A stretch of DNA of 64,000 nt. Origin: Geobacter sp. (lineage in GTDB: Bacteria; Desulfobacterota; Desulfuromonadia; Geobacterales; Geobacteraceae). The notes below the pieces were generated by a model. The model made no database searches. It saw only the letters and a program-made list of their open reading frames with translations, and was not told the origin of the DNA. This document shows, in pieces, positions 8,007 through 53,441 of this stretch (position 1 is the first letter of the stretch; each line of letters begins with the position of its first letter). The stretch spans positions 434,001 to 498,000 of the forward strand of contig PJFC01000002.1 of assembly GCA_003574885.1 (NCBI GenBank), in the 5' to 3' direction. Both the position numbers and the translations under genes were made by a program.

Positions 8007-10313
8007 ATGTTAAAGAACATGAAAATCGGGGGACGACTCACTTTCGGCTTTACCATAATGCTGCTTCTCATGCTTGTAGTTGGGGGGGCGGGGTTCTGGG
8101 GGGTCAGGACCAGCACCGACAAAACAATCGAAATAATCAGGGGGGACGCATCCATATCCGAACATGGCGCCCGGGCACGGGCCAATGTCGTCGGCCTCAG
8201 GCGCTACGAGAAGGATATGTATCTCAATGTCACCGATCCGGAGAAGGTGGCTGAGTACGAGAAAAAGTGGAACGAGCAACTGGAACACCTGAACGCCCGC
8301 ATAGCCGATCTGGAAAAAATAGTCATCCTGACTGAGGAAAAGGAGAAGCTGAAGACATTGAAAGCTGACCTTGAGACTTACACCAACGGATTCATCAAGG
8401 TACGCGGTAAAATAACAGCCGGTCTCATCAAGACTCCTGAAGATGGTAACAAAGCAATCAACGAGTACAAGGACGACATCCATAAACTTGAGGCAGGAGT
8501 ACAGAACCTGTCCGATGAAGCAAACAAGCGGATGGATGGGACTGAACCAGAGTTCAGGGCTCTGGCCAAGCGGACCTTCACCATCCTTGCCGTCTGCATC
8601 GTTTTTACCATCATTCTCTGTGTCATCCTCGGCATAGTCATCACCCGGAGTATTACAACACCGGTCAATAACGCTCTCGGAGTTGCCAACAAGATCGCCG
8701 AAGGCGACCTGACCGTCACCATAGAGTCTACTTCCCGCGACGAGGTGGGACAACTGTTGGCCGCCATGGACAAAATGGCGGAAAGTCTGCGGAACATGAT
8801 CGGGCGGATACGTTCCACGTCGGACCAGGTGGCGTCGGCAGCCAATGAGATATCCAGCGGCTCGGAGCAGATGAACCGGGCGGCCGCCAACCAGGCATCG
8901 GCTGCGGAGGAAACTTCGGCAACCATGGTTCAGATGGCTGCCTCCATCCAGACCGTGGCAGCCAATGCCGATTCCCTTGCCACTAACGTGGATGAGGTTT
9001 CCTCATCGGTGCAGGAGCTTGGCGCCTCCAGCGAGCAGATTTCCAGGAGTGCAGAGGTAATGTCAGCTTCGGTCATTGAGACCTCGGCCACCATCGAGCA
9101 GATGACCGTTTCCATCGACAGAGTTGCCCAGAGTGCCGAGGAACTGGCGTCGTCCGTATCCGAGACCTCCTCCACCATCGAGCAGATGACCGTCTCCATC
9201 GACCAGGTGGCGGGGAATACCCAGGAACTGCAGCAGGTAGCCACCGACACGGCGGCCACCGTCGAGCAGCTGGCCATCTCCATCAGGGAATCGGCCAAAA
9301 ACGTTGGGTCGGCTGACGACGTGGCCAAGGCTGCCGCCAGGGAAGGGGCTGCAGGTCAAGAGGCGGTACAGCAGGCACTGGCGGCCATGGAACGGGTGGG
9401 AAGCGTCATCGACAAGACCGCTCTCTCCATCGCCAACCTGGGCAAGCGATCTGAGGAGATCGGCAGCATCGTCAAGGTTATCAACGAGATTGCCGACCAG
9501 ACGAACCTGCTGGCACTGAATGCGGCCATCGAGGCGGCGCGGGCAGGGGACGCGGGCAGGGGATTCGCCGTTGTTGCGGAAGAAGTGCGCAAGCTGGCGG
9601 AGCGGAGCGTCAACGCCACCAAGGAGATCGGCGAGGTAATCAAGCAGGTCCAGGCCGATACCAACGACTCGGTAAAGTATGGGGAACTGGCGGCCCAGGA
9701 AGCCCGCTCCTCCATGGAACTGTCCGGTGCTGCGGGTAACGCGCTTTCTAACATCGTCAGGAGCATCGAGCAGACGAGCAATCTCATGTCCGAGATCGCC
9801 CTGATGACAGGCGAGCAGGCCAACGCCTCCGGGCAGGTCCTGAAGTCGGTGGAGCAGATGACCCAGGCGACTGCCCAGGTGGCCAATGCTGCACGGGAAC
9901 AGGCTCAGGGTGGAAAACAGATCCGGATTGCCGTTGAGCGGATGAACACCGTCACCCAGGAGGTTACGGGAGCGACCCGTGAGCAGGCCCAGGGGAGCAG
10001 GCAGATCCGGATCGCGGTGGATAACATGAACAACGTAACCCAGCAGGTGAGTATCGCCACCAAGGAGCAGGCGCTGTCGGCGCGACAGATCGTGGAAGCG
10101 ATCAACAGCATGAACAACATGACCATGTCGGTAGCCAATGCGACTGCAGAGCAGAAGAAGGGTGGGGAAATGGTGGTTCAGGCGGTAGAGACCATCAGCG
10201 ACAGCGCCCGGGACAACCTCTCGTCGGTTGAGCAGCTTTCCAGTTCAGCCCAGGGACTTTCCCGGCAGGCAGCCGATCTGGCCGAACTGATTGCACAATT
10301 CAAGGTTTACTGA
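8007..10313 (+). CDS. Methyl-accepting chemotaxis protein, copy 1
   Basis: A 768-residue chemoreceptor. Membrane helices lie at about 12-32 and 192-215. The periplasmic domain between them is all-helical and rich in charged residues, of the long four-helix-bundle type. A HAMP domain follows (about 216-268), then a long signalling coiled coil with the conserved hairpin tip [35 protein letters not shown]. The coil contains many near-repeats such as [10 protein letters not shown] and [12 protein letters not shown]. An AAAGGAGAC site precedes the ATG. From inside the signalling domain onward it is nearly identical in DNA to the second receptor at 11108, while the sensor domains differ, so both should couple to the same CheA/CheW but sense different signals. 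Confidence 0.95.
8859..9806 (+). repeat. Direct repeat, copy A (mcp signalling domain)
   Basis: I find no base difference from 11960-12907 at an offset of 3101, about 948 bases. The two genes diverge on both sides of this block. It encodes most of the receptor coiled coil, including the kinase-control tip. Confidence 0.85.
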
Positions 10314-11107: not shown

Positions 11108-13411
11108 ATGTTCAAGAACATGCGAATCGGTAAGCGACTGGGAATGGCGTTCGGCGCGATCTTGCTTATCCTAATTGTGACGGGTGTCGAAAGCTATTTG
11201 AATATGGAGGAGATATACTCTGTCTCCATGGGAGTCATCAATACTGATGCATTTGTCGCTGAAAGGGCGGCACGAGTACGTGCCGGCATTAACTCTTCGA
11301 GGCGATTTGAAAAGGACGTCTTTCTGAATATCGATTCACCTGAAAAGGTCGCAGACTATATCAAGCAATGGGATGAAAAGCAATCAGCCGTTCTCGAGAG
11401 GTTACAAGACATCGATAAGGTCGTCAAGGGTGAAAAAGAGCAGGAGTTGCTTAAATCTATAAAGCAGCAGTTTAATATTTATGTTGGCGGGTTCAAGGGG
11501 ATATGCGAACAGATACGAGCGGGTAAATTGACGGACCCCTTAAAAGCGAATCAAGCCATGGCTACGTATAAGGACGCTTCGCACAAAGCAGACAAGGATT
11601 CATTCGAATTTGCCGAACTAACTAAAAAGAACATGGAACCGAAGATTAAAATGATGGGGGCTATGAAAAGCCACGCGACGATCTTGATGATCATCATTAT
11701 GGCAGGTGCCGTTCTTCTCAGTATGTTGATCAGTTTTCTTATAACCCGGAGCATCACGAGGCCGGTCGATGCAGCTCTGGGAGTTGCCAACAAGATCGCT
11801 GAAGGCGACCTGACCGTCACCATAGAGGCCACTTCCCACGACGAAATGGGACAGCTTCTGGACGCCATGGGCAAGATGGCGGCAAGTCTGCGGAGCATGA
11901 TCGGGCGGATACGTTCCACGTCGGACCAGGTGGCGTCGGCAGCCAATGAGATATCCAGAGGCTCGGAGCAGATGAACCGGGCGGCCGCCAACCAGGCATC
12001 GGCTGCGGAGGAAACTTCGGCAACCATGGTTCAGATGGCTGCCTCCATCCAGACCGTGGCAGCCAATGCCGATTCCCTTGCCACTAACGTGGATGAGGTT
12101 TCCTCATCGGTGCAGGAGCTTGGCGCCTCCAGCGAGCAGATTTCCAGGAGTGCAGAGGTAATGTCAGCTTCGGTCATTGAGACCTCGGCCACCATCGAGC
12201 AGATGACCGTTTCCATCGACAGAGTTGCCCAGAGTGCCGAGGAACTGGCGTCGTCCGTATCCGAGACCTCCTCCACCATCGAGCAGATGACCGTCTCCAT
12301 CGACCAGGTGGCGGGGAATACCCAGGAACTGCAGCAGGTAGCCACCGACACGGCGGCCACCGTCGAGCAGCTGGCCATCTCCATCAGGGAATCGGCCAAA
12401 AACGTTGGGTCGGCTGACGACGTGGCCAAGGCTGCCGCCAGGGAAGGGGCTGCAGGTCAAGAGGCGGTACAGCAGGCACTGGCGGCCATGGAACGGGTGG
12501 GAAGCGTCATCGACAAGACCGCTCTCTCCATCGCCAACCTGGGCAAGCGATCTGAGGAGATCGGCAGCATCGTCAAGGTTATCAACGAGATTGCCGACCA
12601 GACGAACCTGCTGGCACTGAATGCGGCCATCGAGGCGGCGCGGGCAGGGGACGCGGGCAGGGGATTCGCCGTTGTTGCGGAAGAAGTGCGCAAGCTGGCG
12701 GAGCGGAGCGTCAACGCCACCAAGGAGATCGGCGAGGTAATCAAGCAGGTCCAGGCCGATACCAACGACTCGGTAAAGTATGGGGAACTGGCGGCCCAGG
12801 AAGCCCGCTCCTCCATGGAACTGTCCGGTGCTGCGGGTAACGCGCTTTCTAACATCGTCAGGAGCATCGAGCAGACGAGCAATCTCATGTCCGAGATCGC
12901 CCTGATGTCGGGTGAACAGGCCAACACCTCCGGACAGGTCCTGAAGTCGGTGGAACGGATGACGCTGTCCACTGCCCAGGTGGCCAATGCGGCACGGGAA
13001 CAGGCTCAGGGTGGAAAACAGATCCGGGTTGCCGTAGAACGGATGAACACCGTCACCCAGGAGGTTACGGGAGCGACCCGTGAGCAGGCCCAGGGGAGCA
13101 GGCAGATCCGGATCGCGGTGGATAACATGAACAACGTAACCCAGCAGGTGAGTATCGCCACCAAGGAGCAGGCGCTGTCGGCGCGGCAGATCGTGGAAGC
13201 AATCAACAGCATGAACGGCATGACCCTGTCGGTAGCCAATGCGACGGCGGAACAGAAGAAGGGCGGGGAAATGGTGGTGCAGGCGGTGGAGACCATCAGC
13301 GACAGCGCCCGGGACAACCTCTCGTCGGTTGAGCAGCTTTCCCGGTCGGCCCAGAACATGTCTCAGCAGGCAATCGATCTGGCCGCCATGGTGGCGGAGT
13401 TCAAACTATAA
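11108..13411 (+). CDS. Methyl-accepting chemotaxis protein, copy 2
   Basis: A 767-residue receptor built like the one at 8007: membrane helices at about 12-30 and 190-212, a helical periplasmic domain, HAMP, and the same signalling coil and [21 protein letters not shown] tip. The sensor domain is only distantly similar to copy 1 (both share the pattern R..EKD.(M/F)LN(V/I)..PEKV.(E/D)Y), while the HAMP-to-tip region is nearly identical. It ends in EFKL, with no C-terminal CheR/CheB tether pentapeptide. An AATGAGGAGA site precedes the ATG. Confidence 0.95.
11960..12907 (+). repeat. Direct repeat, copy B (mcp signalling domain)
   Basis: Identical by eye to 8859-9806. Recombination between the two copies would delete the CZB gene and the mcp remnant and leave one hybrid receptor. 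Confidence 0.85.
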
Positions 13412-45027: not shown

Positions 45028-45585
45028 ATGAACAAACGGATGATTATGTCGGTAAGGGGACACGTATCGCTTTTTCTCGCGGTGCTCACCCTGCTCTCTT
45101 CCTGCGGATTTGCCTATGGGGGGTCCAGCCGGGAGGGTAACCAGGCCTTGCTTCTGCCGCCGTCGCAAGAAGACCAGACCGTGCTCACGCGCCGCCTCCA
45201 GACTGCCAAGCGTGATATCGAGGCTTTCCGGATCTTCGCGGAAAATTTTCGCAGCAATGGCGATTCCAAGGCCCTCGCCCAACTCCAGTACCCCGTGGAC
45301 GATTTCCTGAAAAAGCATGTGGACAATCTCCTGTCCCAGAGCCTGCAGCATGCAACCCTCGAAACCATCCGGCTGTCGGCAGAAATAATGTTCATCAAGG
45401 CGCGCGTCTTCCTTGACCTGAACCGGGGTGATGCCGCCAGAAGCGTCGTTGCCGAGATGAAGAACCAGTTCGGCTCCTACCAGAAGATGTCGGTTGAGCT
45501 TCCCGGCAAGACCACCACGCTGGACGAAGGGATTAGGCTGCTCGACGAGGAACTGGCGAAGTCCGCCACTAACGACCGAAAATAA
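45028..45585 (+). CDS. Exported protein, first gene of the Tol/Ton-like operon
   Basis: A 185-residue exported protein. The signal MNKRMIMSVRGHVSLFLAVLTLL ends in SSCG: LSSC fits a lipobox with Cys26, while cleavage after AYG is the other choice. The mature part is helical (TRRLQTAKRDIEAFRIFAENF, LETIRLSAEIMFIKARVFLDLNRGDAARSVVAEM). No known family is recognised. AGAGGGG precedes the ATG at 45028; the longer open frame from 44884 lacks a signal. It lies 14 bases before the proton-channel gene, so it is probably a periplasmic or lipid-anchored part of that system. Confidence 0.8.
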   Translation: MNKRMIMSVRGHVSLFLAVLTLLSSCGFAYGGSSREGNQALLLPPSQEDQTVLTRRLQTAKRDIEAFRIFAENFRSNGDSKALAQLQYPVDDFLKKHVDNLLSQSLQHATLETIRLSAEIMFIKARVFLDLNRGDAARSVVAEMKNQFGSYQKMSVELPGKTTTLDEGIRLLDEELAKSATNDRK

Positions 45586-45599
45586 GGAGTCTGCTGATC

Positions 45600-46175
45600 A
45601 TGGAGTTTTTCGGCATCATCACGATAAATCCTGAAACCTTCAACGTCTGGTCTCTGCGGATATCCATGTCGCTGACTACGACCATCTTCCTTCTCGGCTG
45701 CTTCATGGCCGTACGTGCCTTCCTCTATGCACGGGGAGGCGATCCTGCCCATCTCAACAAGATAAAGAACCAGGAGATGTCGCCGGCCGACGGACTGGCC
45801 GAGAGCGTCGCCAAGATGCTCTGGTCCACGGCACGTGACGAGGAGCAGAGAGGGCACGGTGCGCCGCAGGCGTTTCTTCTCGATGCCACGCGCCAGGTTG
45901 CGGAAAACGGCTACGACGGCCGCTACGTCAACAAGATTTACATGTGCGCCAACCTCCTTCCCCCCATCGGCCTGTGGGGAACCGTCGCCGGCATGATCGT
46001 GATCTTCCTCTATACCGGCGATCCCACCAATGCCCTCAACAAGGGAGCCATCGGCACCAAACTCTGGTCGACGTTCCTGGCCCTGATGTACTACGTTACC
46101 CTCGAATCGATCTGCCTCTTCCTGACCATGCATTCGAGAAAATCCATCGACCGCGGTCTGAGCGTGAAACTCTGA
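45600..46175 (+). CDS. MotA/TolQ/ExbB-family proton-channel protein
   Basis: A 191-residue inner-membrane protein with three helices (about 18-42, 115-137, 150-172). The core LLPPIGLWGTVAGMIVIF...ALNKGAIGTKLWSTFLALMYYVTLESI has the layout of TolQ/ExbB (LLGLLGTVxGLI...ALxxTAxGLxxAI), including the small-residue helix lining the channel. It is shorter than TolQ and ExbB in the cytoplasmic loop. With the next gene product it should let protons through and move a periplasmic partner. The GAG-rich ribosome site fits the ATG. Confidence 0.85.
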   Translation: MEFFGIITINPETFNVWSLRISMSLTTTIFLLGCFMAVRAFLYARGGDPAHLNKIKNQEMSPADGLAESVAKMLWSTARDEEQRGHGAPQAFLLDATRQVAENGYDGRYVNKIYMCANLLPPIGLWGTVAGMIVIFLYTGDPTNALNKGAIGTKLWSTFLALMYYVTLESICLFLTMHSRKSIDRGLSVKL

Positions 46176-46188
46176 GGAGCGACGACCC

Positions 46189-46659
46189 ATGGCCATGAAA
46201 CGCATCGCACGTCATACCTGGCTTTTTTCCTTCACGGATGTCGCCTTCCTGCTCCTGCTGGTGTGGACCCAGATCGCACGGCTGAACACGTCTGCAACCC
46301 CTGTGGCGGAAATGCAGCTCCCGGCGCCGGTCGTGGCGAAGAACCCCGAGCTGACGGCACTGAAAACCTCCAAAGAGTACCGGCAGGTGCTCATCGAGAA
46401 GCATTCCGACCGGCCATACCGGTTGACCAGCATCGTCAGCGGGAACGAGGTGTCACGCAGCGCCCCCATGACATTTGCGGAACTGGCCACCTCCCTGAAT
46501 GCGGTTTACAGCGAGCGACGTGGCACGCCGCGCCCGGTGGTTGTGCCGCTCCCCGAGTCCTTCAGCAGTGACCTTCTCCAGGCGGCAGCGCTCGTCAGTA
46601 AGCTCTGGAACGTAAAGGAGAGCGCAGTGGTCCACCTGGAGAGCGAAGGGAAACAATGA
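46189..46659 (+). CDS. ExbD/TolR-like proton-channel subunit
   Basis: A 156-residue protein with a short cytoplasmic start, one membrane helix (about 10-27, WLFSFTDVAFLLLLVWTQIA) and a periplasmic domain. D17 in the helix matches the essential Asp of ExbD, TolR and MotB. The C-terminal domain (TFAELATSLNAVYSERR...LLQAAALVSKLWNVKESAVV) follows the ExbD beta-alpha pattern (A.LV..L...G...V.L). Sequence similarity is low, so the assignment leans on the helix motif and on the neighbouring ExbB-like gene. It overlaps the next gene by 4 bases. Confidence 0.78.
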   Translation: MAMKRIARHTWLFSFTDVAFLLLLVWTQIARLNTSATPVAEMQLPAPVVAKNPELTALKTSKEYRQVLIEKHSDRPYRLTSIVSGNEVSRSAPMTFAELATSLNAVYSERRGTPRPVVVPLPESFSSDLLQAAALVSKLWNVKESAVVHLESEGKQ

Positions 46660-47642
46660 GCCGGCTGATTCGCATGGCCTATGGCCACGGCGGGACCAGA
46701 CTGGAGCGGATCCTCGTCACGGCTTCACCCGCAAAATCAAAGGCCATGCCACTCTGGCTGCAGTTTTTGCTGCTCTTTTCGTGGATCGTTGTACTGCTCC
46801 TGTTCAGCCGCTACGCGGTCACAACCGCCCCGAAACAGACAACAGCCATCGATACGAGCCGGCTGGAACTGATGCCCCCCCCCGCCATTCCTGAACCACC
46901 GCTGGTCAAACCGGTCGAACCGCCGCCTCTGCCGCCACGGCAAAGCGCGCAGGAACATCAAGAACAGCAGCAAGAAGATGTGGCCGCACCCACCATCACC
47001 CGCCCTGTCCAGCGCGCACCAGTAGAACCGGAATATCAGCCGCGCATTGTCCGGCAAAGAGCACAGACGGCTGTGGACGACGTAACGCCTGCAGCGCCCC
47101 AGGTACGACGGTCTGCCGCCATGGCCGAATCGGCTGCAGAACGAACGACCATCACGCGGAGCCGGGGTGCCGCGACTACAGACACGCCAGCTGCAATGGA
47201 GCGGGTTGCCCCTCTGCGTAGGGCGCGGGGATCAGAGGGAACGGCGACAGTAGCAGGACCGGAACTTCGACCGATAACCCGCAAAGAACGGCCAGGCGGG
47301 ACTATTTCCGGGGGGACACCGCAGATGGTTGCCACGCGGGAACGGCCGGGCGGGATGGCTGCCGAGGAGAAGGGAAGCTCGCACCTCTCCATCTCCCGGG
47401 GAGTTTCGTTCTCAAGTCTGGACACGTGTACCAGCACCCGGGAAGAAGAGGAAAAAATCACGGCCGTGCTGGGGATCGTCGGCGGACGGCAGAGCTGCCG
47501 GGACGGTTCGGGCGAATACCGGTTCAGGGGTACGCAGCGAATCTCGTCGTTCAACCTCATCATTTATCCCGCCAAGGGACATAAACCAACCAACAGATGC
47601 GAGGAACTGGAAAATGCGTACAGGTGCCTTAAAGGCCGTTGA
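46656..47642 (+). CDS. TonB-like linker protein with Cys-containing C-terminal domain
   Basis: A 328-residue protein: about 32 cytoplasmic residues, one membrane helix (33-52), a proline-rich segment (PPPAIPEPPLVKPVEPPPLPPRQ, 73-98 region), a long disordered, Thr/Arg-rich stretch, and a small folded C-terminal domain (about 245-328). That domain has four cysteines (DTCTS, QSCRDG, NRCEELE, YRCLKG), enough for two disulfides. Layout is that of TonB or TolA, but the TonB C-terminal fold signature is absent. It should carry force from the ExbB/ExbD-like pair into the periplasm. The start overlaps the ExbD-like stop; the next gene starts 29 bases inside its end. Confidence 0.75.
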   Translation: MSRLIRMAYGHGGTRLERILVTASPAKSKAMPLWLQFLLLFSWIVVLLLFSRYAVTTAPKQTTAIDTSRLELMPPPAIPEPPLVKPVEPPPLPPRQSAQEHQEQQQEDVAAPTITRPVQRAPVEPEYQPRIVRQRAQTAVDDVTPAAPQVRRSAAMAESAAERTTITRSRGAATTDTPAAMERVAPLRRARGSEGTATVAGPELRPITRKERPGGTISGGTPQMVATRERPGGMAAEEKGSSHLSISRGVSFSSLDTCTSTREEEEKITAVLGIVGGRQSCRDGSGEYRFRGTQRISSFNLIIYPAKGHKPTNRCEELENAYRCLKGR

Positions 47643-49605
47643 CCTACGGTTCGTTCCCCTGCTTGCTGTCATGCTCTGTCTGCTGGCGGGAGCGACGGCG
47701 GCGCACGCGGCCGGACCGAAAAAGAAGAAGGCAGGGACCGCGGTAAAGTCCTCCACGACAATGAAGACCGATCGACCCCAGGCTGCAGCCGTGACGATCA
47801 GGGAGTGGGGGCCGTATCTGGACGTGGCCTACGAACTCACCTACTGGGACAGGGCCGAGATCAAAGAATGGCGTGAAAAGAGCGAACGGCAGCTCGGAGA
47901 GACGCTCGCAGCCTATATAGCGGAGTGGAACGACAAGCTAGCGGTTTCAGCCGGCAGCACCGTCAGCGCCGGCGGGGACAACCGGCTGCCGATCTACCGG
48001 GAGCGGGACTATCTGCGGTTGGCCATCGCCCAGACTATCGATTACCTCCAGAGCGAGAACCTGGAAAGTCTTAACAGCGCCGAACAGATCCTCGATAAAC
48101 TGAAGGAGAAGGCGACAATGCCGGAGGTGGCCTTCTGGACCGGGTTCGTCAAGGCGCTGCAGGCGATGGAGGTAAACGACTCCCCACAGTTCGTCGCCCG
48201 GGTCTTCGATATCTGGAACAACGCCGTCATGTACATCGAACAGGGGACCGCCGCTGCGGCGAATGCGCCCAGCGGCAAGAGTGCCCCCTACCTCTACCGT
48301 AATATTGTCAATCTTGTGGTCAATCAGGCAATCATCGACCGGAAGATGAAAGATCTCAACGCCCTGGGACCACTCTTCCTCATGCTACGCGACCGGGACC
48401 TGGCAGAAAAACCGGACGAAGGACACTACCTGACATCTCTGGTCCGGCATATCGCGGACGGTTTCGAGGCCCCCGATGCGGATCGTTACCGGCTCAACTT
48501 TACCGTGGCAGTCATCGAGGCACAACGACTGCAGAAGATAGCCGCCGCCAAACTCGATTCCCAGGGGATGACCGACGACGCGCAACGGGTTTTCGAGCAG
48601 TCGCGGCTCTTTGACGATTATGCACTCAAATGGGCCTCATCCCGTCGGAGCAGCGGGGCAGCCCTGGCGATTGCCGACTACCTGGACATCACCAGCTTCG
48701 CCATCCAGCGCCTGGCAGACAACGGTAAAGCACCTGCCTACCCCTTCTTTGCCATGCTACCTGCCCACGATGGCTCGTCAACCATCCTCAAGGCGATGGA
48801 TATCTTCAATGACCTGGCAGCTTATAACAACGGCGGCTGGGAAAAAGCCGGCTACGCCAACCGCGAACTCTACCTGAAGGCGACTCACCGGCTATGGCGG
48901 ACCATCATGGAACTCGCCCTCTGGACAGGCGACTTCTACCAGATGAGGCTCGACTCCGCCAACGACCCGCAGGCCATTTTCACCGTCGCTGCGCCGATGC
49001 AGGCGGTTCTCAACTCCTATCTGGACTTCTTTGCTGCCCAGACGAGGTACGGTTATCCGGAGGTAGTACCCGACTCAGCCTGCTTCGGAGCCGCCGAGGC
49101 AGCAGAAAAACTTGCCCATGCCTACCTGCGCACCTACACCTACAGCACTGACAGCGCCAGTTACAACCTCTGGTTCGTCCGCCGCCTGCAGGCAGCAGAA
49201 CTCTTTCCCCTGGCGCCGGGAGAGATTGCCCGGTCCGCAGCAGTGCTCCAGCGCGACGGTCGCTACAACCTCTTCCTCGATTACTTCCTCCCCCTTGCAG
49301 ACCGTTTCAAACAGTCAGCCGCGGTGCAGAAGTGGCTGGAAGGCCAGAAGAGCGACACTGCGGCGGCTGTTCGTGCCTATGCTGGCACCATCGATCGTCA
49401 GTTTGCCGCCGATCCCGGCGGCAGAAAAAGTAGCGCTCCGGCTGCCACCACCGCACCGCTCCAACAGTTGCGGGAGGAGTTGCAACGCAAGCCTGACCAT
49501 CCGGTGCACCAGTTCCTGAAAGAGTTTTACGTGGAAGAAATGGGTAAGGACACCCCCTATAGCCGGCTTCTGAAAGACGCGAACCGGCTCGGAGGAAAGC
49601 TGTAG
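47614..49605 (+). CDS. Large secreted helical protein A, unknown family
   Basis: A 663-residue exported protein with a signal peptide (1-33, ending AHAA) and a Lys-rich start (GPKKKKAG). The rest is almost all helical and has no motif I recognise. It is a paralog of the next gene product: compare YLDVAYELTYWDRAEIKEW with VLDEISAHTWHSRDEL, NNGGWEKAGYANRELYLKA with NEGWEQLRFVSRKAYIDSA, and YPEVVPDSACFGAAEAAEKL with HREIMPDSAYFADAECLKML. The ATG at 47614 with GAGGAACT ahead gives the signal peptide; the frame is open from 47329. Its start lies inside the TonB-like gene, so it is made with that protein and is a likely partner or cargo. Confidence 0.8.
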   Translation: MRTGALKAVDLRFVPLLAVMLCLLAGATAAHAAGPKKKKAGTAVKSSTTMKTDRPQAAAVTIREWGPYLDVAYELTYWDRAEIKEWREKSERQLGETLAAYIAEWNDKLAVSAGSTVSAGGDNRLPIYRERDYLRLAIAQTIDYLQSENLESLNSAEQILDKLKEKATMPEVAFWTGFVKALQAMEVNDSPQFVARVFDIWNNAVMYIEQGTAAAANAPSGKSAPYLYRNIVNLVVNQAIIDRKMKDLNALGPLFLMLRDRDLAEKPDEGHYLTSLVRHIADGFEAPDADRYRLNFTVAVIEAQRLQKIAAAKLDSQGMTDDAQRVFEQSRLFDDYALKWASSRRSSGAALAIADYLDITSFAIQRLADNGKAPAYPFFAMLPAHDGSSTILKAMDIFNDLAAYNNGGWEKAGYANRELYLKATHRLWRTIMELALWTGDFYQMRLDSANDPQAIFTVAAPMQAVLNSYLDFFAAQTRYGYPEVVPDSACFGAAEAAEKLAHAYLRTYTYSTDSASYNLWFVRRLQAAELFPLAPGEIARSAAVLQRDGRYNLFLDYFLPLADRFKQSAAVQKWLEGQKSDTAAAVRAYAGTIDRQFAADPGGRKSSAPAATTAPLQQLREELQRKPDHPVHQFLKEFYVEEMGKDTPYSRLLKDANRLGGKL

Positions 49606-49669
49606 TTCCCCATTGTTTTAAAGCGGACACCGCTCCGCACGACCAGATATAATGACGTGAGGACCTTTT

Positions 49670-52255
49670 ATGCGATATATCCGAACTCTGCTCCTCGGGG
49701 CGCTTCTTTCATGCGCCCTTCCCTTTGCCGCCTCCGCGGGTGAAGCACCTCCTGCTCACGAATGGGATACGGTTCTCGACGAAATCAGCGCCCATACCTG
49801 GCACAGCCGGGACGAACTGAACACCGAACTGCAACAGCACGAAGCCCGCATCAAGCAGGACCTCCCCGGCTACATATCCGCGTGGGAACAGCGCATGGCA
49901 TTGCCGATTGCCTATACCGCCAAGAACAGAACGGGCGACTCCTGCGGACCGCTTACTTACTGCGCTGCCGACTTCCTCGACATCCGGAAGCTCATCAATC
50001 AACTGCGGGAGCGTAACGAGCCGGTAGCACGCCTGATCTTCGACAAGCTCACACCGGAAGCGCAGCAGGTCATTGCTGCATCCGCCCCACCCGTACCCCA
50101 GCCTGGGAAGAGCGGCGCGACGAGTGCAACTGCCGGTGCAGCAGGGACCGCTCTGGCAAAAGCAGTACAAATCCTCCCCGGGGAGCTGTCAAAGATCGTA
50201 CGGGAGGAAACCATCTACACTCCGGAGCGATTCAAGGAAGTCCGGCTCTCCTTTGCGACAAGAAACCTCGTCTCCGAGCACTACGATGCGCAAAACCGCG
50301 TCTGCGTCAACAAAAGCCTTCTCACCGAGGCGTTCCCGGAGGGGTTGGCACGCAACTTCAAGTGCGTCATTCAGAAGGACGAAACCTACCGGCGGGTGGT
50401 AGCAGCCAGGACAGTCCAGTACCTGCGCACGGGGGATACCAGTACCCTTGCAACAGCAATTGCCATCAGCAATAAATTCGAAGACAAACTCATGTACACC
50501 GACTTTGCGTTCTGGTACTACTACCCGCGGATGCTTGATGACGTGCATTCCGGGAATGCCGTCAGCTTGAAGCACGATTCCTATGCGCTGCTGAACGATG
50601 CCGTCCTGGGTGGCGAGCCGACCTCCCCGGCAAAGGCAGGTCCTGCCGAACAGGAGCGACGCAACTACGGCTGGAACCTCGCTGATGTAGTCCTGATCAG
50701 GGGAATCATGGAAGGACGCATGAGTGGTCTTGAAGCACTCGGCTCGGCCATCTGGCTGCTCGGTAATCGAAATGAAGCACCGGCCGGCAGCGGCCAGGAG
50801 AAAGAGCTGGGACTGCTCCTGACCGATCTGCGCAAGTACCTGGACGGACCCGAGTCCGACAATTTCCGTTTGAACTATGCGGTTGCAATGCGCGAGGGGA
50901 TGAGACGCTACGCCCTCCTCGTACGTGCACTCGATGCACATGGAGACAGTGCAGCCACCGAAATTCATTTCAAAGAGTCCCGGAAATATCTGCGACTCGC
51001 CTATGAATGGGCAGAAACCGGGCAGGGAAAGGCAACAGCTGTCACGAACTATCTGGAGCTCATCAACCTGGCACTGGCACGGATGAAAGACACTCTTCCC
51101 CCAACTGCATACGCGGCTTTGGCTACAAACCCGGGCAAAGCCAGTGCCGATACGGCGGTCTCCCTGTACCACGAGATGGCGGCCAGGGAAAACGAAGGAT
51201 GGGAACAGCTGCGCTTCGTAAGCCGCAAAGCCTACATCGACAGCGCCCAGAAACTCTGGAGCGCCCTGCGGCGGAATACAGTCCTCGTCGGCGATTATTA
51301 TCTGCAACGGATGGACAAGGATGATTTCCAGAGCGTCATGGATAACGCTGAACCCGCGGAACGGGCACTCCTCCGCTACGTCAAGCTTTTTGATGAGATC
51401 ACTGCCAACGGCCACCGGGAGATCATGCCTGATTCGGCTTACTTCGCCGATGCGGAATGTTTGAAAATGCTGGCGCAGCTGAAGCGCATCGTTTACGCCT
51501 ACAACAACAAAATCGAGCTGCACAACCAATCCATTACCTACCTGCTGAAGGCAATCGAAGTTTATCCGTACGACGACAGCATCAACGTCTATGCGGTCAT
51601 GAGCAGGAACATCAACACCCCCCTCGTCAACCGGTCGCTGGATAATGTCCTGAGCAGGATGGCCGCCAACCCGGTCACCGCCAAATGCCTCGACAGTTCC
51701 AGAAATTTCTGTGACCGGAGCCTCAGCCAGACGATGGAATGGAATCGGTACAAGGCAAAGAACAACCTGTCCGGGAGAACCGACGTTGACCGTCTGGAGG
51801 AACTCAAGGCACTGGTCGGCACCGGGCAGCCGGGAACCACCCTGCCCGGCCAGGACATGTATCGGCTCGCGGGGAGCTACATCGCCGTGGCCGAACAACT
51901 TGCATCCCTCACGGCGGAATCACGGGAACAACTCACCAAATGCATGGCCTCAGGGGTCGAGTGTGCGGCGAGTCCCGAAGCCGACAAACGTCTGGTAACG
52001 AAGAAAGATGAAGCGGAGAAGATGAATGCTGCACTGCTCGGCTCGTGCGCCGCTTACCGGCAGGCGCAGGGGAATGCGGGGGATGGCAATGGTCTGGCCG
52101 ACGCGTCAAAACTGGCTACCCTCGCCACCGACGTTTCCTTGTACCAGACCGACCAGGTGATGGACATTACCATGCGGAAGAAACTATACGAACTGCGCCT
52201 CATGGACAACCACCCCATGCACAAGGTGATCAAGGCCTCTTTTTACGCGAACTGA
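49670..52255 (+). CDS. Large secreted helical protein B, paralog of A
   Basis: An 861-residue exported protein with a signal peptide (1-23, ending ASAG). It is mostly helical, with an Ala/Gly-rich linker near 145-160 (GKSGATSATAGAAGTALAKA). It shares the order of conserved blocks with protein A but has a longer C-terminal third with eight or so Cys in pairs (AKCLDSSRNFCDRS; TKCMASGVECAA). No enzyme motif is recognised. GTGAGGACC precedes the ATG, 64 bases after protein A. A strong terminator follows, so this ends the operon. Confidence 0.8.
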   Translation: MRYIRTLLLGALLSCALPFAASAGEAPPAHEWDTVLDEISAHTWHSRDELNTELQQHEARIKQDLPGYISAWEQRMALPIAYTAKNRTGDSCGPLTYCAADFLDIRKLINQLRERNEPVARLIFDKLTPEAQQVIAASAPPVPQPGKSGATSATAGAAGTALAKAVQILPGELSKIVREETIYTPERFKEVRLSFATRNLVSEHYDAQNRVCVNKSLLTEAFPEGLARNFKCVIQKDETYRRVVAARTVQYLRTGDTSTLATAIAISNKFEDKLMYTDFAFWYYYPRMLDDVHSGNAVSLKHDSYALLNDAVLGGEPTSPAKAGPAEQERRNYGWNLADVVLIRGIMEGRMSGLEALGSAIWLLGNRNEAPAGSGQEKELGLLLTDLRKYLDGPESDNFRLNYAVAMREGMRRYALLVRALDAHGDSAATEIHFKESRKYLRLAYEWAETGQGKATAVTNYLELINLALARMKDTLPPTAYAALATNPGKASADTAVSLYHEMAARENEGWEQLRFVSRKAYIDSAQKLWSALRRNTVLVGDYYLQRMDKDDFQSVMDNAEPAERALLRYVKLFDEITANGHREIMPDSAYFADAECLKMLAQLKRIVYAYNNKIELHNQSITYLLKAIEVYPYDDSINVYAVMSRNINTPLVNRSLDNVLSRMAANPVTAKCLDSSRNFCDRSLSQTMEWNRYKAKNNLSGRTDVDRLEELKALVGTGQPGTTLPGQDMYRLAGSYIAVAEQLASLTAESREQLTKCMASGVECAASPEADKRLVTKKDEAEKMNAALLGSCAAYRQAQGNAGDGNGLADASKLATLATDVSLYQTDQVMDITMRKKLYELRLMDNHPMHKVIKASFYAN

Positions 52256-52282: not shown

Positions 52283-52318
52283 AAAAAAAACCGGAGCAGA
52301 GATGCCCCGGTTTTTTTT
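52283..52318. terminator. Bidirectional terminator after the Tol/Ton-like operon
   Basis: An A8 run and ACCGG, then a loop region AGCAGAGATGCC, CCGGT and a T8 run. It sits between convergent genes ending at 52255 and 52350. Confidence 0.85.
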
Positions 52319-52349: not shown

Positions 52350-53441
52350 CTAAGGACCCGTCATGTTAATCTTCAGCCCGTTGTCGGTTTCGGTGATCCG
52401 GTACGGGAGGAGTTTACCCTGGGCAGAATCGAGAACGATTCTGAGGAAGTTGGGGTGATTCCCGAAACGGACGGCGAGGATGCCGAATTTGTGGACCGGT
52501 ACCCTGACCGCCCCCAGGCCGTTAATCCCGTCGCTGATATCGATGACAAGTCGGGCAGGTTGGGACAGAGTAAAAGTCCGGTACCTGGTGATACGCCCTG
52601 TGGCGATTATATCAATGGCATCCTGGTCGATAGATATCCCGGTCACCGTGATTTGTCCAGCCGGTATGTACCCTGTAGTTCCGGCAGTGAAAGTGACCGG
52701 TGCTCCATCTGCCCCTGCCGGGGCGGTACCCGAAACCGGTGCCGCCTGCTCAGTCTCGGCTGACGGCATCTGCTTTGCCGCATCCAGCTTCGATGGTTCG
52801 GTATAGGTCCATTCGGCTGCGCGGGGAGCCGCACCCTTTTCTTCCACTGGTGCCGAAGGGGCAACCGCCTGCTTCACCCCGCCCAGCTGGAACGTGAGGC
52901 CGGCGGTGTAGGCGATGTTATTATACACTTCACGCCTCCGGTTCACGTCCCTTACATTGAAGTCGAGGATATGGCGGACATCACCACGCAGAGCAAGATA
53001 GTCGGTAAGGAATATCTTGATGCCGGCACCGTAATCAACCAGGGTATCATGGTCAACCTGACCTTGCCGGGAATCGAAAAAAATTATCCCGCCACCCGCG
53101 GCCACATAAGGTACGAAGCGATTCTGCGGGATGAAATGGTAGAGGATGTCACCCCGCACTTCGTACAGGTTCACTTTCTGCTGCGGGGGAACGGCTGTTG
53201 AAGTGAGATCAGGGCTGTAGGTGCCGGTAAGTTCCAGCGCCCAGTTTTGGGTCACATTGTAACCGACTGCAAGGCCATAGACCTCGCTGTTCTTAAGCTG
53301 CTGGTTACCTTCGAAGACATACCCACCCGCAAATGGTGTAATAGAGAGCGAATAGGGAAGGTTTTCGCCCCGTGCCACAACAGGCTGAAGACAGCCCATC
53401 ATCAGTAACGCCGCAACAATAGCTGCCTGGCATCGTTTCAT
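52350..53441 (-). CDS. Outer-membrane beta-barrel protein with C-terminal AMIN domain
   Basis: A 363-residue exported protein. After the signal peptide (about 1-24) comes an eight-strand barrel of the OmpA/OmpW kind (LSITPFAGGYVFEGNQQLKNSEVYGLAVGYNVTQNWALELTGTY... to FQLGG near 190). A Pro/Ala linker follows, then a C-terminal domain (about 255-363) with AMIN features: FTLSQPARLVIDISDGING, VPVHKFGILAVRFGNHPNFLRIVLDS. AMIN domains bind peptidoglycan in AmiC and PilQ. It thus anchors the outer membrane to the wall with AMIN where OmpA uses its own domain. It is convergent with the operon ending at 52255. Confidence 0.82.
   Translation of the reverse strand: MKRCQAAIVAALLMMGCLQPVVARGENLPYSLSITPFAGGYVFEGNQQLKNSEVYGLAVGYNVTQNWALELTGTYSPDLTSTAVPPQQKVNLYEVRGDILYHFIPQNRFVPYVAAGGGIIFFDSRQGQVDHDTLVDYGAGIKIFLTDYLALRGDVRHILDFNVRDVNRRREVYNNIAYTAGLTFQLGGVKQAVAPSAPVEEKGAAPRAAEWTYTEPSKLDAAKQMPSAETEQAAPVSGTAPAGADGAPVTFTAGTTGYIPAGQITVTGISIDQDAIDIIATGRITRYRTFTLSQPARLVIDISDGINGLGAVRVPVHKFGILAVRFGNHPNFLRIVLDSAQGKLLPYRITETDNGLKINMTGP

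Follow-up and report, generated by a model that had tools for sequence, protein, structure and literature searches.

The window analysed here is a stretch of 64,000 nucleotides from Geobacter sp. (assembly GCA_003574885.1, contig PJFC01000002.1, positions 434,001 to 498,000), and its positions 45028-52255 hold six co-directional genes on the forward strand, designated p1 to p6, with spacings of 14, 13, -4, -29, and 64 bases. Open reading frame (ORF) analysis confirmed the number, shared direction, sizes, and spacings of these genes as given in a preliminary description made from the sequence alone. That description ended the system at the last of the six genes and overlooked a conserved partner, designated omp, which starts 94 bases beyond p6 on the opposite strand. 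The features of the locus, with protein lengths in amino acids (aa), are as follows.

45028..45585, forward strand: p1, small exported alpha-helical protein, 185 aa; conserved first gene
45600..46175, forward strand: p2, ExbB/TolQ-like channel protein, 191 aa, with three hydrophobic stretches
46189..46659, forward strand: p3, ExbD/TolR-like protein, 156 aa, with a single transmembrane (TM) helix containing Asp17
46656..47642, forward strand: p4, force-transducer-like protein, 328 aa, with an N-terminal tail, a TM helix at residues 33-51, a Pro-rich linker, and a C-terminal four-Cys domain
47614..49605, forward strand: p5, exported alpha-solenoid protein (protein A), 663 aa; its start lies within the end of p4
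49670..52255, forward strand: p6, exported paralogue of p5 (protein B), 861 aa; found in three genera only
52283..52318, no strand assigned: candidate bidirectional terminator (A-tract, GC-rich inverted repeat, T-tract) in the gap that separates p6 from omp
52350..53441, reverse strand: omp, outer-membrane beta-barrel protein with an AMIN domain, 363 aa; conserved neighbour of the cluster

The putative terminator was read directly from the sequence and was not listed by the pattern scan. A simple hydrophobicity scan agreed with the topologies previously assigned to the six proteins: three membrane-like stretches in p2, one in p3 (with Asp17), one in p4 followed by a linker with a Pro content of 14.8%, and only an N-terminal signal-like hydrophobic stretch in each of the exported proteins p1, p5, and p6. 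Comparison with Geobacter sp. AOG1 indicates purifying selection on each of the six genes (dN 0.05-0.16, dS 0.33-0.57, dN/dS 0.14-0.27, where dN and dS are the nonsynonymous and synonymous substitution rates). Scans against Pfam, NCBIfam, and PADLOC assigned no family to p1, p3, p5, or p6 and none convincingly to p4; in PADLOC, which covers Zorya and other defence motors, none of the seven proteins of the locus was matched at E<=0.1.

Conservation of the cluster was assessed in 141 genomes of the order, 20 of which were matched by the p5 profile and likewise 20 by a p6 query. p2 was found in 19 of the 141, all of which carry p5, and in no genome was p2 found without p5. Since the sole p5 genome without p2 (G071) has a truncated contig that begins inside p3, p2 and p5 mark the same genomes. 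In a sample of the phylum, the p5 query matched 5 of 395 genomes, namely two of the window's genus and three distant metagenome-assembled genomes (MAGs); in the order and the class around the distant MAGs, only those MAGs matched (2/2 and 1/1 genomes). The distribution is patchy, with two of the four genomes in the window's own genus lacking the cluster. Among named genomes, the p5 profile returned 19 loci, from Geomonas species, Geobacter sp. AOG1, Geobacteraceae, Desulfuromonadales, and other MAGs, with three of them (L075-L077) from the distant MAGs. Together with the window these make 20 loci from 19 organisms, since L067 and L069 are identical copies from one organism, and they supplied the alignments used below: 12 rows for p1, 14 for p2, 13 for p3, 14 for p4 (the rows of L064 and L074 stopping one residue early), 19 for the p4 head (L069 left out), and 18 for p5 (L069 and L073 left out) plus five for p6. 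The two copies, on contigs 11 and 7 of Geomonas oryzae S43, span the whole cluster, are identical over all 13,857 shared bases, and lie near contig ends; either a large segment was recently duplicated or the second copy arises from the assembly.

The order p1-p2-p3-p4-p5 is maintained across genera in every close locus long enough to display it, and the overlap between p4 and p5 is exactly 29 bases in all 15 close loci checked (the window and 14 named loci; the measurement left out L066, L069, and L077). p6 is present in only 5 of the 20 p5 genomes of the order (four of the 19 named loci and the window) and forms a single group in the tree (100/100), on a long branch and with the root not settled; p6 is a lineage-specific addition and not a defining part of the cluster. 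In the preliminary description, wide occurrence of the channel-like genes without the two large proteins was named as a refuting outcome. The proposal withstood this check for protein A, as p2 was not found without p5 in the order, and did not withstand it for protein B, as 15 of the 20 p5 genomes lack p6; the pair of giant paralogues is a clade-specific condition and not the general one.

Assignment of p2 to the MotA/TolQ/ExbB channel family, also proposed in the preliminary description, is supported by sequence comparisons. p2 matched the Pfam model MotA_ExbB (PF01618) at E=7.6e-4, and a p2 profile including distant relatives matched solved ExbB/TolQ proteins in the PDB at 3.5e-7. In a set of 19 genomes, a weak PF01618 match lies at the place of p2 in all 11 p5-bearing genomes (E 2.6e-4 to 5.2e-3) and a match of this kind is absent from all eight genomes without p5. 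Thr128 in the second TM helix and Thr158 in the third are invariant in 14/14 sequences and are taken here to be the counterparts of ExbB Thr148 and Thr181. The Asp residue of p3 was found in 13/13 sequences, that of L076 being read by eye as the alignment shifts its position. p3 itself had no Pfam match; its distant counterpart in L056, which is the same DNA as L076, matched Pfam ExbD at 2.9e-15. By Pfam, L056 contains a pair of ExbB-type genes, of which one is an ExbB-ExbD fusion, plus a further ExbD gene, and a second ExbB-type gene was likewise seen in L057. The ExbB-ExbD fusion proteins of these distant p5 clusters (L056, 1607-2911; L057, 4784-6103) stand beside further motor genes.

The topology of p4, with one TM helix followed by a Pro-rich linker, is TonB-like as previously described, whereas membership in the TonB family did not hold. 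By the markers tested, p4 is not a TonB, because both the SHLS motif and a TonB_C match are missing from 14/14 sequences. The motif, scanned in the TM helix with an assumed spacing, was found in 0/14, and the two sequences with a His in the 27-residue stretch scanned have it outside the motif; no TonB_C, TonB_2, or TolA C-terminal family was matched in 14/14 (Pfam at E<=1; NCBIfam), while the TolA of the same genome, serving as a control, matched TonB_2 at 8.2e-17 and also TonB_C. A vWA domain was likewise not matched in 14/14, and the sole NCBIfam model touched by the window p4 was GltJ (E=0.18, 10.8 bits versus a cut-off of 450 bits). In the last 80 residues of p4, four Cys (258, 281, 315, and 324) are invariant in 19/19 sequences at identities down to 22%, suggesting that the head is probably held by disulfides between them. 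The 90-residue head was modelled as an alpha-beta-beta-beta-alpha arrangement with a predicted local distance difference test (pLDDT) score of 85.7. Among the best 50 of 285 Foldseek matches of this model, the lowest E was 0.38 and nothing rose above noise, and a VIA search gave a best Z of 2.4 with no TonB or TolA among the 16 matches listed, although a match missing from such lists is no proof of a new fold. The corresponding PDB profile search used an alignment that included one full-length row.

The two large proteins are paralogous, as had been noticed from their shared blocks (BLASTP E=2e-46, 27% identity over 411 aa), and the statement that they belong to no recognised family was upheld, neither being matched to a known sequence family in Pfam or NCBIfam. 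The p5 model is all-helical (pLDDT 79.4, predicted template modelling score 0.76), and p5 is predicted to be a TPR-like alpha-solenoid of stacked helical hairpins. The structures closest to it in the PDB belong to TPR, importin-type, and designed repeat proteins, with VIA Z up to 13.3, where a high Z among helical-repeat folds may reflect a common arrangement only. No TPR model was among the matches of 15 p5 members at E<=1, and the GltC- and GltD-like proteins of the same genome do match TPR models under this control. Two leads to kinship were rejected: the p5 profile matched designed PPR proteins in the PDB over ~32 positions (E down to 9.6e-6), which was judged a helical-repeat resemblance and not kinship, and Foldseek returned general solenoids only. 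For p1, no Pfam or NCBIfam match was obtained and none was convincing among 12 relatives; classification as a lipoprotein was dropped because Cys26 is not conserved.

The AMIN domain, known from amidases and secretins, binds peptidoglycan. The omp product matches the Pfam families OMP_b-brl (2e-14) and AMIN (4e-10, 40.1 bits versus a cut-off of 20.5), and an omp match lies beside the cluster, within ~1 kb, in 16 of the 20 loci (15 of the 19 named loci and the window). Its placement varies: downstream and on the opposing strand in the window, L059, and L060; downstream and co-directional in L061 and L062; upstream of p1 and co-directional in L064, L074, and Geomonas. In the Geobacter group, an omp-type gene adjoins the cluster wherever the contig extends far enough. 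AMIN also exceeds the Pfam cut-off in L061, L062, L064, and a fusion in L041 (L041 and L066 being from one genome), in which the domain is joined to the end of p5 in a protein of 847 aa (AMIN 4.9e-7). The Geomonas counterparts, encoded as one protein of ~800 aa or as two genes in G. diazotrophica (L065), gain an OmpA domain (2e-21 to 5e-21 in L038, L065, and L068, the loci scanned). In an all-against-all comparison of ORFs of at least 100 aa (E<=1e-8; 16 loci from 15 genomes), families common to at least three of eight groups were limited to p1-p6, omp, and antisense or shadow ORFs of these, with some other ORF families common to two groups. These observations suggest that omp encodes a likely outer-membrane/cell-wall partner of the cluster. 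Beyond omp, the segment 53674-56799 of the window holds a galE-like gene as well as one for polysaccharide biosynthesis (Polysacc_synt_2), and neither of these neighbours is shared by three or more groups.

Among machines of the Tol/Ton/Agl kind, the cluster is a genuine and conserved variant, and it probably constitutes an accessory proton-driven trans-envelope machine with the following layout. By homology, p2 and p3 would be the inner-membrane motor, a proton channel of ExbB/ExbD type. The topology of p4, in which a single TM helix leads through a long Pro-rich linker to a small head, points to a force transducer, and the conserved gene overlap and co-occurrence suggest that its head acts on p5, a putative periplasmic alpha-solenoid; p1 may serve as a helical adaptor, and in genomes that carry it p6 may be a second solenoid or adaptor. 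Conserved adjacency, domain content, and the one fusion suggest in turn that the p5 solenoid is linked to the wall and the outer membrane via the AMIN/barrel protein, with the added OmpA domain in Geomonas. Strokes of the motor would then pull or reposition this link, similarly to Tol-Pal with Pal or, as is thought, the Agl-Glt core, and p5 and p6 may thus be the moved clients envisaged in the preliminary description.

Several points weigh against this proposal. The Pfam match of p2 lies under the curated cut-off; the profiles that reach ExbB/TolQ hold the distant rows L076 and L077, and L076 is itself a clear family member; the p3 profile reaches PDB ExbD only at E=1. The 29-base overlap of p4 and p5 does not extend to the distant loci, with an overlap of 44 bases in L075 and a gap of 133 in L076. 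The omp gene was not seen in four of the 20 loci (L063 and L075, on contigs of ~5 kb, and L076 and L077), and in L076 and L077 other neighbours stand in its place, while the AMIN regions of the Geomonas counterparts (L038, L065, and L068) were recognised only by BLAST to the window protein and not by Pfam. Finally, every contact along the path p4-p5-AMIN is inferred.

To our knowledge, only a few kinds of machine carry proton-motive energy across the periplasm, among them Tol, Ton, and Agl-Glt. Within the host genome at E<=0.1, MotA_ExbB matches fall at only three places: TolQ, AglR, and p2. Tol-Pal is encoded separately (L165), with TolQ, TolR, TolA, TolB_N, and OmpA/Pal recognised by Pfam and CpoB named by eye. 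It resembles the cluster in directing a motor and transducer toward a wall/outer-membrane anchor and in having a TPR protein, CpoB, in its operon; in contrast, no TolB or Pal lies inside the cluster, as had been observed, and the proposed anchor is the AMIN/barrel protein.

The layout of p1-p5 is closest to that of the Vibrio TonB2 operon, given here as ttpB2-ttpC2-exbB2-exbD2-tonB2-ttpD2. ttpB2 is its first gene and ttpD2 its last (PMC6957404). Like the cluster, the six-gene Vibrio TonB2 and TonB3 systems open with an exported protein, include ExbB, ExbD, and a Pro-rich transducer, and close with a helical-repeat protein. This resemblance in gene order raises the alternative, considered unlikely, of an extended Ton system in which p2-p4 energise TonB-dependent receptors encoded elsewhere and p1 and p5 are accessory in the manner of TtpB2 and TtpD2. 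Consistent with it, two receptors with a Plug domain are encoded away from the cluster, on contigs C11 and C1 of the host genome, which has no MotA_ExbB gene besides the three named above (E<=0.1), and L056, one of the distant loci, carries an additional ExbB-type gene, as TonB2 has TtpC. However, the window cluster lacks TtpC, none of 12 p1 proteins matched DUF3450, p4 lacks the SHLS motif and the TonB_C match found in the genome's own TolA, and the cluster is adjoined by the barrel/AMIN gene instead of a receptor, no TonB-dependent receptor occurring in the cluster, in agreement with the preliminary description, or among its shared neighbours. Moreover, the congeners without the cluster, G024 and G026, retain one and two Plug genes and one MotA_ExbB gene each, so that receptors in the window's genus do not depend on the cluster; in Geomonas, Plug genes number 3-4 in six cluster-bearing genomes and 3-9 in six that lack the cluster. 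The congeners thus weaken the idea of the cluster as a sole Ton system, although a receptor encoded elsewhere could still be served.

A second alternative derives the cluster, as a diverged copy, from the Agl-Glt core complex, the ancestor of the myxobacterial gliding and sporulation machines. It would account for the kinds of parts in common, which are a motor, a Pro-rich transducer, helical-repeat proteins that are exported, and a barrel protein, and for GltJ being the only NCBIfam model that p4 touched; the core complex was reported in Geobacter by Luciano 2011 (PMC3169522). The same genome holds such a core elsewhere, at 2794-12511 of L160 (C9:120000-139999), with GltC-, GltD-, and GltE-like genes, a small protein, AglR, AglQ, AglS, and a GltG-like gene, named by their layout and backed by matches to NF033768, MotA_ExbB, ExbD, and TPR models. 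NF033768, which is taken here to be the AgmX/PglI tail model, had been searched as a test of p4 and found this core instead. Between the two sets, similarity was confined to the motor: BLAST of p1-p6 against the Glt-like proteins of L160 gave nothing better than E=0.26, and the profile probabilities, weakened by shallow Glt alignments (4-7 close rows), were 0.3% and 2% for p5/p6 against the GltD- and GltC-like proteins and 0.2% for the p4 head against the GltG-like protein. The single match among these profile comparisons, which did not extend to p1 and p3, was of p2 to AglR (96%), as expected because both belong to one motor family; in addition, p5 lacks the TPR matches of the GltC- and GltD-like proteins. 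Descent from this core is therefore regarded as quite improbable. Chance adjacency of the motor trio and unrelated helical proteins, with p5 and p6 having an independent periplasmic role, gains from the evidence for a p4-p5 interaction being indirect, and is nevertheless very hard to reconcile with the co-occurrence of the genes, their constant order and 29-base overlap, and the lack of other shared neighbours.

For the machine proposed here, a further close precedent is provided by the vWA force transducers proposed in 2025 beside tolQR-like and TPR genes (PMC12204202). The same paper describes the SHLS motif for TonB, TolA, and vWA transducers, and its authors state that further transducers remain to be discovered. 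p4 shares with the vWA transducers its topology with a non-TonB head and an adjacent TPR-type gene, and differs from them in its 90-residue four-Cys head without vWA match or SHLS motif. A bolder reading, held only tentatively and at somewhat less than even confidence, is that the cluster represents a distinct transducer class, in which a four-Cys head, for which no relative was detected, acts by pulling on periplasmic solenoids of a new family that tie wall and outer membrane together via the AMIN/OmpA barrel, as an accessory system gained and lost among Geobacter relatives independently of Tol, Ton, and Agl-Glt. The cluster shares a known motor, differs in its transducer head and very large putative clients, and in the Geobacter group is flanked by a gene whose outer-membrane product carries a domain of wall-binding type. 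Literature searches of open-licence PMC papers found no description of this cluster. Since named Geomonas strains carry the cluster and close relatives lack it, gene removals and comparisons should be feasible.

Apart from the cluster, four genomes of the genus, the host genome (G000), G024, G025, and G026, have Plug receptors, and no dedicated ExbB gene was found in them: the matches were to TolQ, joined in some genomes by AglR or p2. Elsewhere in the window, two methyl-accepting chemotaxis proteins (8007-10313 and 11108-13411) are 78% identical overall, with near letter-identity from about residue 260 to 600 and diverged sensor ends, reflecting either a recent duplication or gene conversion.

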